The translations under genes were made by a program, and so were the position numbers. Positions 23,300 through 35,535 of a DNA stretch of 37,600 bases are shown here, piece after piece; position 1 is the stretch's first letter, and each line of letters opens with the position of its first letter. This DNA is from Hyphomicrobium sp. (lineage in GTDB: Bacteria > Pseudomonadota > Alphaproteobacteria > Rhizobiales > Hyphomicrobiaceae). The stretch spans positions 1-37,600 of the forward strand of contig NZ_JADZBI010000183.1 in NCBI RefSeq assembly GCF_020852195.1, written 5' to 3'. Below the pieces are notes generated by a model. The model made no database searches. It saw only the letters and a program-made list of their open reading frames with translations, and had not been told where the DNA came from.

Positions 23300-23358
23300 C
23301 TAGATCATGATCGCTTCAGACCCGATCAGTCCGAAGCGTGAATCATCGGTCTCTCTAG
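23300..23358 (+). repeat. CTAG-bounded palindromic repeat, copy A (hairpin module 1 only)
   Basis: CTAGatCATGATCGCTTCAGACccgatcaGTCCGAAGCGtgaATCATcGGTCTCtCTAG; about 50/53 identical to module 1 of copies B and C. Confidence 0.85.
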
Positions 23359-29952: not shown

Positions 29953-30435
29953 ATGATGGAAGACGACCTTATGGCACCGCCGGCCCGCCTCGGCCACATG
30001 GAACGCGCCCTGTCGGAGGCGCGCGCCGCTGCAGCCCGCGGCGAGGTTCCCGTCGGCGCCGTGCTCGTGGGCCCGGCAGGCGAGGTGATCGCCGCCGCAG
30101 GCAACCGCACGCGCGAGCTGTCGGATCCCTCGGCCCACGCCGAGATGCTCGTGATCCGGGAGGGAGCCGCCAAGCTCGGCAGCGAGCGCCTGCTCGGCCA
30201 TGACCTCTACGTCACGCTCGAGCCCTGCCCCATGTGCGCAACTGCGATCTCGTTCGCCCGCATCCGCCGCCTCTACTACGGCGCGCCCGACCCCAAGGGC
30301 GGCGGCGTCGAACACGGACCCCGCATCTTCAGCCACGCGACCTGCCACCATCGCCCCGAGCTCTACCCCGGCCTCGGAGAAGCCGACGCGAGCGCGATCC
30401 TCAAGGCATTCTTCGCCGCCCGCCGCCCGGACTAG
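29953..30435 (+). CDS. tadA: tRNA-specific adenosine deaminase TadA
   Basis: SAHAEMLVIREGAAKLGSERLLGHDLYVTLEPCPMCATAISFARIRRLYYGAPDPKGGGVEHG; HAE and PCxxC zinc motifs. Confidence 0.93.
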   Translation: MMEDDLMAPPARLGHMERALSEARAAAARGEVPVGAVLVGPAGEVIAAAGNRTRELSDPSAHAEMLVIREGAAKLGSERLLGHDLYVTLEPCPMCATAISFARIRRLYYGAPDPKGGGVEHGPRIFSHATCHHRPELYPGLGEADASAILKAFFAARRPD

Positions 30436-30537
30436 ACCATGATCGCTTCGGACCCTATCAGTCCGAAGCGTGAATCATCGGTCTCATCAAAAGACTAGAG
30501 CGCGATCCCGATTCAATCAAAGCTGATCGCGCTCTAG
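30432..30537 (+). repeat. CTAG-bounded palindromic repeat, copy B (modules 1+2)
   Basis: CTAGACC...GGTCTCATCAAAAGACTAGAGCGCGATC...GATCGCGCTCTAG; 102/106 identical to copy C; perfect 10-bp and 13-bp stems. Confidence 0.95.
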
Positions 30538-31478
30538 CCCGGCGCCTCCCCGCTGCGGAGAGAGGCCGACACGCGAGCACCAGGCGGGAGAGCAAGCACC
30601 TGCTCGAGTTGCGCGCGGAGCTGCGCCTTCGCCGGCTCGGCAGCAGCGAGGATCTCGCGCACCTTGAGGAACTCGAGCGCCTGATAGCGCCCTGTCCCGG
30701 CGTCGATGTAGATGTCGGGCCGATGCGCCTTGAGCTTCTCGCGCACTATGGAGCGCTCGAACAGGAACGACGAGGCGAACAGCGCCTCGATCGCCGTCGG
30801 ACGCGGACGCGACGGTGACGGCACCGTCGTCCCCGACACATCGATCGCGACCAGGATATCCGCTTCGCCGGCGATGAGATCGAACGGCAGCGGATTGGTG
30901 AGTCCGCCATCGATGAGGCTGCGCCCGCCGAGCAACACCGGCTCGAAGATCACCGGCAGCGCCATGCTCGCAGCCACGGCAGCCCTGAGCGGGCCTGAGG
31001 AGAACACCGCCGCCTCGAGCGCGTAGAAGTCGCTCGCGACCACGCGCAACGGGATCGGAAGCTCCTCGAACGTCTGCGGCACGCCCTTGGGCAACACGAG
31101 ATCGAGCAGCGCGCCCGGAGCGAGGAACGCCGTGCGCGCCGCAACGAGATCCCAGAACCTGCCGTTGCCCTGCACCCGCGCCGCGAACAGATCGCGCACG
31201 AGCCCGATCCGCTTGGTCAGGACGTCCTCGGTGTGCGCACGAATGTCGCAGGCGGCAAGCCCGGCAGCATAAGCCGCCCCGTAGATCGCGCCGATGGACG
31301 TGCCGGCAATGATTTTCGGTTTGATTCCAAGTTCGTCGAACACTTCGAGCATGAGGATGTGGGCGAGCCCACGCGCCCCGCCACCGCCCAGAACGAGGCC
31401 GATTGAAGGCAGCCGCCCAGCCCCGTGCTGGCCGCGTTTTGCCGCAATGCGAGGGGTTGCCGTGTCTGCCATGATCAA
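30534..31478 (-). CDS. Patatin-like phospholipase
   Basis: IGLVLGGGGARGLAHILMLEVFDELGIKPKIIAGTSIGAIYGAAYAAG; catalytic Asp motif LIDGGLTNPLP. Confidence 0.92.
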   Translation of the reverse strand: MIMADTATPRIAAKRGQHGAGRLPSIGLVLGGGGARGLAHILMLEVFDELGIKPKIIAGTSIGAIYGAAYAAGLAACDIRAHTEDVLTKRIGLVRDLFAARVQGNGRFWDLVAARTAFLAPGALLDLVLPKGVPQTFEELPIPLRVVASDFYALEAAVFSSGPLRAAVAASMALPVIFEPVLLGGRSLIDGGLTNPLPFDLIAGEADILVAIDVSGTTVPSPSRPRPTAIEALFASSFLFERSIVREKLKAHRPDIYIDAGTGRYQALEFLKVREILAAAEPAKAQLRAQLEQVLALPPGARVSASLRSGEAPG

Positions 31479-31645
31479 GCCTCAGAGATAGCCTCTCTGC
31501 CCATCTTAGGCAGGTCCGGCGTCCGGACAAACCGGCTCGACGGAAGAGCGCCTGCCGCAAGTTCGATGAGCGCACGACAACGACCATGGCCCGCAAACGA
31601 GGCCAAAAAATAAAGCTCGCCGATCATCCAACAACGGAGACGATC

Positions 31646-32071
31646 ATGACTACCATCCGGGCGATCCGCGCCTCGATCCTGACGCTCGCCATCTCACTCG
31701 CCGCCACGGCTGCGACAGCCGCGCCCGCCGAGCACGCGTCGAGCCCGACCACCTCCATCGGCAACGCGATTGCCGCGCGCATCATTGCGATCAAGTGCAA
31801 TAGGCCGATGCTGCCGACCACCCTCACGCAGGCCGAGATCGGCGAGCTCGACACCTTCATCGACGAGCGTCAGACGGCATTCATGATGGAAAGCAAGGCC
31901 AACCAGCGTCTGAGCGAGATGGTCTTCCCGCAGCTCGCGCGCGACTATAATCAGCTCTACAGCACCCCCGACGCCTGTGACGCAACCGCACGCCACATGG
32001 CGAAGGCCACGCTGCAGCAGGTTCGCGAGGTCCAGGCCGGACTGAAGCAACGCGCTGAGGTCAAGCAGTAG
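31646..32071 (+). CDS. Secreted hypothetical protein
   Basis: Signal peptide MTTIRAIRASILTLAISLAATAATAAPAEH; start at 31646 preferred (upstream GGAGACGATC). Confidence 0.65.
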   Translation: MTTIRAIRASILTLAISLAATAATAAPAEHASSPTTSIGNAIAARIIAIKCNRPMLPTTLTQAEIGELDTFIDERQTAFMMESKANQRLSEMVFPQLARDYNQLYSTPDACDATARHMAKATLQQVREVQAGLKQRAEVKQ

Positions 32072-32129
32072 AATATCTGCGTTTCACGCAAAGGCCGGCA
32101 GCAAGACCACGGGCTGCCCTTGCCTTCCT

Positions 32130-32534
32130 TCATTTTCGCTCGTTTGAAAGCGGAGAGACCCCGATGGGACCGATCACCGTCTCGCGGTCGGGCGGTCCGA
32201 TACGCAGGCTGGGCCTCTCGATCTCGCTTGCGAGCCGCACAGCCGGGTTCGCATGGCGGTCCATCAGGAGCAGGATCGCTCCGTCCTCGATGGCACCGAG
32301 CTTGACGCGGATATCGCCTTGGCCGCTGCGTAGACGCAGCTCCCCGCCGCCGCTCTCGCCGAGATAGAGCTGCGCGCGCATCTCTCCGCGCTCGTTGACG
32401 AGCTCTATCAGGCGCGCGCGGATGACGTCCTCGGGCTTCGCCTGGGCATCAGCGCGCGTCGTGACCCAGGCCAGCGCAAGAAGCAACACGCCGTTGAGGA
32501 TGGCCTGTAGCGGCCAAACGCGGATTTTGGACAT
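32130..32534 (-). CDS. Secreted hypothetical protein
   Basis: Signal peptide MSKIRVWPLQAILNGVLLLALAWVTTRADAQA; intact ORF. Confidence 0.6.
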   Translation of the reverse strand: MSKIRVWPLQAILNGVLLLALAWVTTRADAQAKPEDVIRARLIELVNERGEMRAQLYLGESGGGELRLRSGQGDIRVKLGAIEDGAILLLMDRHANPAVRLASEIERPSLRIGPPDRETVIGPIGVSPLSNERK

Positions 32535-32601
32535 GCTTCGCCTCCCTGATGCTTTCGCACAGGAATGACGAGCGAGTACGTCTGAACCGTGACGGGAGCC
32601 C

Positions 32602-32707
32602 CTAGACCATGATCGCTTCGGACCCTATCAGTCCGAAGCGTGAATCATCGGTCTCATCAAAAGGCTGGAGCGCGATCCCTATGCAATCAAAGCTGATCGC
32701 GCTCTAG
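32602..32707 (+). repeat. CTAG-bounded palindromic repeat, copy C (modules 1+2)
   Basis: 106 bp, 4 mismatches to copy B; internal CTAG is CTGG here. Confidence 0.95.
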
Positions 32708-34368: not shown

Positions 34369-34926
34369 TCAGCCCCGCGAAGCCTTTTCCTCGTAGTCGG
34401 CGATCTGGCCTGCGAGATCCACGTAGGCCGCGCAGCGCGTTCCGCACCGCTCGGCGATCTCCTCGAGTTGCCCGCGCGCCTGATCGGGCTGGCCCTTGAT
34501 CAGGAACGCTTCTCCAAGATAGGCGCGCGCGACCACATAGTCCGGGTTGACCGCGAGGGCCTTCCGGTAAAGCGGCAGCGCCGCATCCACATCGCCGAGC
34601 TTGCGCGTTGCAAATCCGATGTAGGTCAGCACGCGCTCGTCCTTGGTCTGCGTAAGGTCCAGATAGCGCAACGCCTCGGCATACTGGCCGCTCTTGGCCA
34701 GCCAGTAGCCGGCATAGAACAGCTCCTCGTCCGCCATCTTGCGGCTCGCCGTGCCGACGCAGGCTGTCCAGGCCGCCGTGCCCTTGGCGTGCGCATCGCA
34801 CGCCGCACTCGCAGGCCCCGTGTCCTTGGCGACGCGCCCTTCCGCCGAGAGCGGCGAGCCGAACGCTACGGCGAGCGCCCCCGACGCCACGAGAAGCCCT
34901 GCCGTCCTGGACACGAGTTTTATCAT
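34369..34926 (-). CDS. Secreted TPR protein, paralog 1
   Basis: Signal peptide MIKLVSRTAGLLVASGALAVAFGSPLSAEG; TPR YIGFATRKLGDVDAALPLYRKALAVNPDYVVARAYLGEAFLIKGQPDQARGQLEEI. Confidence 0.8.
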   Translation of the reverse strand: MIKLVSRTAGLLVASGALAVAFGSPLSAEGRVAKDTGPASAACDAHAKGTAAWTACVGTASRKMADEELFYAGYWLAKSGQYAEALRYLDLTQTKDERVLTYIGFATRKLGDVDAALPLYRKALAVNPDYVVARAYLGEAFLIKGQPDQARGQLEEIAERCGTRCAAYVDLAGQIADYEEKASRG

Positions 34927-34989
34927 CTCAAAGTTCCCCTCGGGGGGCGCGGACCGCCCCGTCCTTTTCCTCAACCTGCGAAGCCGTGC

Positions 34990-35535
34990 TCAGCCACGCG
35001 CCGCGCGGGTGGCCTTGAACGCCCCAATCTCCCGCTTGAGATTCGCGAACGAGACCGAATCCGCGCCGACCCGCCGCGCGATCTCGCCGAGCTGCTCGCG
35101 CGCATGGATGACGTCGCCCTTGGCCAGGAACGCCTCGCCCAGATACGCGCGCGCCTGAACATAGTTGGGATCGATCGCGAGTGCACGCGCGTAGTAGGGC
35201 AGCGCCGCATCCACGTTGCCGAGCTTGCGCGTGGCGAAACCCATGGCGTTGAGCGCGCGCGGATCGTCCTTGTCCTGCACGGTCGCGAGCAACGCCAGCG
35301 CCTCGGCGTGCTTGCCCGCGTGTGCGAGCCAATAGGCGCCGTTGATGATCTCGTCGTCGAGCGCACTATGATGCGGCTTGCAGGCCGCCTTCTTCTTGTT
35401 CTCGGGCTTGGTGCAGTCGATGCGCGGCTTGCTCGGCCCGTCGTCGTCGGCAAAGGCTTGCAGAGGGGCAGCCACGGCAAACAGCGCCACCACGCCGAGC
35501 GCCGAGATGAGATGTTTCGTACTGACCTGTGTCAT
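34990..35535 (-). CDS. Secreted TPR protein, paralog 2
   Basis: Signal peptide MTQVSTKHLISALGVVALFAVAAPLQAFADD; TPR AMGFATRKLGNVDAALPYYARALAIDPNYVQARAYLGEAFLAKGDVIHAREQLGEI; SD AAGGAGGG. Confidence 0.82.
   Translation of the reverse strand: MTQVSTKHLISALGVVALFAVAAPLQAFADDDGPSKPRIDCTKPENKKKAACKPHHSALDDEIINGAYWLAHAGKHAEALALLATVQDKDDPRALNAMGFATRKLGNVDAALPYYARALAIDPNYVQARAYLGEAFLAKGDVIHAREQLGEIARRVGADSVSFANLKREIGAFKATRAARG

Follow-up and report, generated by a model that had tools for sequence, protein, structure and literature searches.

A two-hairpin repeat of Hyphomicrobium that probably inserts at the TA of CTAG-like targets and restores the stop codons at its edges

Results

A composite palindromic repeat abuts gene ends

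The DNA analysed here (the window) is a stretch of 37,600 nt from one contig of a draft Hyphomicrobium genome (G000; 4.24 Mb, 267 contigs), and the relatives of its glycerate dehydrogenase recovered by search are from Hyphomicrobium. It carries three copies of a palindromic repeat, and four of their six edges are exact TAG stop codons, those of tadA and of the patatin, glycerate dehydrogenase and PP2C phosphatase genes. Gene ends were taken from an independent caller that uses dicodons and was trained on G000; it recovered all four of these genes. The features are as follows.

23300..23358, + strand: copy A, hairpin A only, with flanking CTAG at 23300-23303 and 23355-23358
23355..23357, - strand: TAG stop of the PP2C phosphatase gene (CGC-TAG)
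30432..30537, + strand: copy B, full composite element with CTAG edges
30433..30435, + strand: TAG stop of tadA (GAC-TAG); TA would be target and G the first element base
30433-30434 and 30535-30536: putative duplicated TA of copy B
30435-30534: predicted element proper of copy B (G...C)
30434..30484, + strand: hairpin A of copy B (AGACCATGATCGCTTCGGAC ... GTCCGAAGCGTGAATCATCGGTCT), carrying GANTC (GAATC)
30495..30537, + strand: hairpin B of copy B (CTAGAGCGCGATC ... GATCGCGCTCTAG), carrying GANTC (GATTC)
30534..30536, - strand: TAG stop of the patatin gene (GGC-TAG); TA would be target and G the complement of the last element base, C30534
32602..32707, + strand: copy C, a full composite element that shares 96% identity with copy B
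32704..32706, - strand: TAG stop of the glycerate dehydrogenase gene (GCC-TAG, after FKLA)

The full repeat is about 105-106 bp long and comprises hairpin A (GACCATGATCGCTTCGGAC...GTCCGAAGCGTGAATCATCGGTC), a spacer (TCATCAAAAGG) and hairpin B (CTAG/CTGG-AGCGCGATC...GATCGCGCT-CTAG). Both hairpins are predicted to fold strongly as single-stranded DNA, with -33 kcal/mol and a z of about -8.3 for copy B. The terminal inverted repeats are weak (GACCATGATC versus GAGCGCGATC), and the stretch 3' of hairpin A in copy B is A-rich, not T-rich. Neither the left edge of copy A nor the left CTAG of copy C (32602-32605) is a stop codon. GANTC, the target of the CcrM methylase, is found in both hairpins of copy B, and hairpin B of copy C has lost its own. 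Rfam gave no match anywhere in the window. At 34442-35260 the window also contains a direct repeat of 195 nt, with 73% identity and a spacing of 624, that is unrelated to the hairpin element.

A first-pass annotation of the window had placed TAG stops preceded by GAC, GGC, GCC and CGC at these four edges, and they lie exactly there. It had also taken the dehydrogenase (...FKLA) to be full length, which is borne out by relatives: their proteins terminate at the same residue, and their stops are mostly TGA or TAA. We checked 27 stop-coincident gene ends in three relatives. The ortholog ends were identical to the residue in 47 of the 50 comparisons that were possible, and the stops used were TGA in 23, TAG in 17 and TAA in 10. 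The proteins at the element edges are thus not truncated. Among the stop-coincident genes are some that resemble GAPDH and lipoamide dehydrogenase, as judged by their C-termini. The element can lie exactly at gene ends, those of essential genes included, with the protein unchanged.

Empty sites in relatives

In related genomes tadA and patatin converge with a four-base overlap. A single CTAG forms the stop of both genes in the element-free loci L049, L055, L056 and L062, the shared stops are CTAA/TTAG in the element-free L038 and L079, and tadA of L082 ends in GAC-TAG with no element. In the window this single CTAG appears to have become two, which flank copy B.

Other empty sites were found between H. 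sulfonivorans S1 (G070) and Hyphomicrobium sp. D-2 (G071), which are about 94% identical; several further pairs were uninformative, being both filled, partly deleted or flanked by sequence that could not be aligned. One lies at the stop of a groEL-like gene (protein end ...GGMGGMGDMGF), where the empty TTC-TAA-GCCCC corresponds to the filled TTCTAA-GACC...GCTC-TA-AGCCCC. The second reads CTGG when empty and CAGG...CTAG when filled, and the third CTGG when empty and CTAG...CTAG plus a second element when filled. Each of these empty sites contains one C-T-(A/G)-(A/G). Since the presence and absence of insertions differ between these close species, the repeat has moved recently on a species-level time scale. 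At L261 (G070:C6 near 244600), one target holds two different palindromic elements in tandem, an arrangement that fits the idea that every insertion provides a new CTAG for a later one.

The empty sites foreseen by the first-pass annotation were therefore found, as a single CTAG, CTAA or CTGG, with the shared tadA/patatin stop among them. Its proposals that stops are preserved on either side, that the target is essentially CTAG and that the proteins are full length agree with these comparisons.

The duplicated part of the target

Thirty-one copies from four genomes have YTAR-like edges on both sides. Their left/right pairs are CTAG/CTAG in 18, TTAG/CTAG in 8, CTAG/CTAA in 2, TTAG/CTAA in 2 and CTAG/TTAA in 1. 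A matching 4-bp repeat is seen in 0 of the 13 pairs other than CTAG/CTAG, and TTAG/TTAG never occurs. In nearly all copies the left edge is YTAG and the right edge CTAR. Conservation ends at the YTAR boundary of the position profile, where position -1 on the left is G in 96% and position +0 on the right is C in 93%, the outer bases being less conserved. Because the two edges vary independently and no TTAG...TTAG is found, the duplicated part of the YTAR target appears to be TA only, and the G on the left and the C on the right would be borne by the element. Every edge pair except CTAG/TTAA (n=1) fits Y-TA-[G...C]-TA-R. The stop present after insertion would thus consist of the TA of the host and the G of the element. 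It had been proposed that CTAG is duplicated on both sides so that the stop is kept; the stop is kept, whereas the edge pairs point to duplication of TA and not of the whole CTAG.

Two copies do not fit, L265 (the groEL-like gene of G070) and L201 (G000). On the left they carry CTAA-GACC or CTAA-GTC, a single base beyond the prediction for a TA duplication. Solo copies of module A lack a clean right TA and have either decayed or moved otherwise.

Stop codons at edges exceed the CTAG background modestly

Genome G000 gave 41 BLAST matches to the repeat and 49 module-A cores, counted with the hairpin A pattern at up to 3 mismatches; the reversed pattern, used as control, gave 0. One copy (G000:C94:27367-27473) stops 1 base short of a contig end, and assembly breaks at repeats may conceal more copies in this draft.

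The genome-wide count suggested by the first-pass annotation showed that an edge is an exact stop in 25 of 44 independent copies of G000, both edges being stops in 2 of these. The CTAG background was estimated over 437 kb of genome stretches, not the whole genome, and comprised 198 non-element CTAGs, with 111 within genes (56%), 35 at stops and 52 elsewhere. As a null, 35/87 or 40% of the extragenic CTAGs are stops, against 57% of copies with a stop edge (binomial p = 0.019). Copies with a CTAG edge have a stop edge in 23/33 (70% versus 40%, Fisher p = 0.0035), a figure that is too high, as CTAGs at stops are preserved by selection while others decay. The excess over the null is real, yet modest. 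The stop-edge fraction is 9/29 (31%) in G070 and 5/24 (21%) in G071, and the coincidence is thus not universal. Many copies lie away from stops, an observation that had been named beforehand as evidence against the first-pass proposal; obligate targeting of stops has to be given up, and targeting of CTAG stands.

Although 56% of CTAGs are intragenic, called genes contain only 1 of the 44 copies. With 40% of extragenic CTAGs being stops and so few copies inside genes, recognition of stops is therefore not needed, and CTAG targeting together with selection against hits within genes largely accounts for the coincidence. Avoidance of promoter regions would raise the excess at 3' ends further.

Distribution and search for a transposase

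The family is present in 7/7 other members of the genus that were searched and absent from the other genomes of the family and order in that search; a plasmid collection searched with the Hyphomicrobium element gave 0 matches. A different hairpin family (AGCATTTTCCGACGAAGTGG...) occupies the same dehydrogenase GCC-TAG stop in another Hyphomicrobium species (L070:6964-7070), apparently an independent use of this site. It has a B-like partner (CTAGAGCAGGATCC...GGATCCTGCTCTAG) and matches Methylobacterium, Chelatococcus, Bradyrhizobium and Sinorhizobium plasmids, among others. According to third-party annotation, a ring-cleaving dioxygenase gene in Chelatococcus and an acetate-CoA ligase gene in M. 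nodulans have the left CTAG of this family as their stop, and the other annotated places examined lie away from stops. The two plasmid sites, each with the related repeat at the stop of the upstream gene, are as follows.

L433:557-1504 and L434:1-1204: Chelatococcus and Methylobacterium plasmid sites

The coincidence of edge and stop is thus wider than one genus and not obligate.

Among the transposase families tested, none was found to have an intact member in G000. Y1_Tnp (PF01797), DUF4096 (PF13340, IS5-type), DDE_5 (PF13546, IS701-type) and DDE_3 (PF13358, IS630) gave 0 matches there, and DDE_Tnp_1 (PF01609) a fragment only. DUF4096 and DDE_5 transposases were accordingly rejected as movers in G000. 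DDE_3 is absent from most carriers; G006 has one and G074 has three. Element-like ends were sought at the DDE_Tnp_1 and DDE_3 loci of relatives and none were seen, and a search for an autonomous element sharing the ends of the repeat found none.

Discussion

The repeat is a family of a known kind, the short, palindromic elements that resemble MITEs and lie between genes in alphaproteobacteria. Among these, CIR of Caulobacter, reportedly the subject of Chen and Shapiro (2003), and RIME of Rhizobium are intergenic repeats of about 100 bp and are likened to it by description only. In its target choice it looks like a non-autonomous MITE of the IS630 or IS711 sort, IS711 being a member of the IS5 family. 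Bru-RS, a further named family of this kind, are palindromes 103-105 bp long found between genes (PMC2266754, PMC2267715), close to the 105 bp or so of the repeat, a likeness again of description and not of sequence. CIR repeats are given as CcrM-associated in work cited in PMC10969869, and the Hyphomicrobium repeat carries GANTC in both modules. IS630-type elements insert into TA and duplicate it (PMC2170065), and a 1991 paper cited there reports in its title a preference for the TA in 5'-CTAG-3'. IS630, ISY100 (IS630-Tc1/mariner) and MITEs of this type thus resemble the repeat in TA insertion and duplication and in CTAG preference, but the repeat has neither a transposase gene nor a matching autonomous copy, and DDE_3 is absent from G000. 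IS711 of Brucella likewise duplicates the TA of YTAR (PMC2266754), but is an autonomous element of 842 bp.

We propose, with a probability of about 0.75, that the repeat is a non-autonomous two-hairpin MITE that inserts at the TA of YTAR, prefers CTAG, brings its own G and C ends and so restores the stop. The target, the edge pattern, the full-length proteins, the empty sites and the polymorphism between close species can each be read from sequence comparison. Like a MITE, the repeat is short, multicopy and devoid of coding capacity, its insertions are polymorphic, and it has clean empty sites and an apparent TA duplication of YTAR; such duplication at TA targets with CTAG preferred is also what characterizes IS630/Tc1-mariner elements. 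The element would enter the TA of a YTAR target, CTAG being strongly favoured, and the TA would be doubled to give Y-TA-[GACC...GCTC]-TA-R. A Y-TAG or Y-TAA stop on either strand would become Y-TAG with the protein unchanged, and a palindromic CTAG stop common to two convergent genes would yield one TAG for each. Insertions within genes would be purged by selection. With few CTAGs in this GC-rich genome, with stops making up about 40% of the extragenic ones and with intragenic insertions lost, stop sites would be over-represented. Movement would be of the cut-and-paste type, driven in trans by a DDE transposase with specificity for TA (IS630/Tc1-mariner or IS711-like) now absent from G000, and the mobilising enzyme may come and go.

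Other readings of the edges were weighed. The whole CTAG could be a 4-bp target-site duplication, with the element proper running from ACC to GCT, as in MITEPsy1 of Pseudomonas syringae, a 100-nt MITE of similar size and target for which a 4-nt duplication of CTAG or YTAA is reported (PMC3189936). CTAG does flank most intact copies on both sides, and the groEL-like copy, whose edges are CTAA...CTAA, fits a 3- or 4-bp repeat. This reading is nevertheless unlikely, given that none of the 13 informative copies has matching non-CTAG edges and that nearly all read ...TAG on the left and CTA... on the right. Even less credence goes to a truncation or extension of genes near their 3' ends by a stop that the element brings, so that insertion itself makes the coincidence. 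Edge stops are nearly always TAG, with a G borne by the element, and the nearest dehydrogenase relatives have TGA or TAA, not TAG; yet the final residue was the same in 47/50 ortholog comparisons and the stop is already present at empty sites, which leaves this idea largely refuted.

The paired hairpins and the position at gene 3' ends also recall REP/BIME elements, which a RAYT (an IS200/IS605-like Y1 transposase) would insert 3' of CTAG with no duplication. Each of the two hairpins has a tetranucleotide at its foot, and solo A modules carry CTAG on the left only. Full elements, however, are flanked by YTAR on both sides, with a single copy at empty sites, and the Y1_Tnp gene (PF01797) was found in 0/8 Hyphomicrobium genomes, so that movement as a RAYT-borne REP was rejected and the reading is very improbable. 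A retention of elements at 3' ends by function (formation of transcript ends, mRNA stability or GANTC/CcrM sites), with the stop coincidence secondary, is somewhat less improbable than any of these, while still doubtful. Strong hairpins lie a few nt from the stop, GANTC is present in both modules, and a literature summary (PMC5082802) states that REPs up to 15 nt from the stop stall ribosomes and trigger decay by trans-translation. Against this, hairpin A of copy B is not followed by a T-rich stretch, and many copies are decayed, far from gene ends or polymorphic between close species.

Insertion of the proposed MITE at TA, with the stop rebuilt, is the part most worth reporting, as it offers a testable account of repeats that lie flush with gene ends; we found no description of such a geometry in the open-licence literature searched. 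As a tentative extension, which we put forward as possible though not probable, the terminal G and C may have been selected in a class of Hyphomicrobiales elements that rebuild TAG, for which stops, shared and essential ones included, would be a safe harbour where CTAG is otherwise rare, and different CTAG-edged hairpin families may share this harbour across the order. Insertion is predicted to convert TAA stops to TAG, to enter overlapping convergent genes harmlessly, and to place a strong hairpin directly 3' of the stop, with possible effects on translation termination and mRNA decay. For annotation, a repeat that abuts a stop codon does not imply that the gene is truncated.
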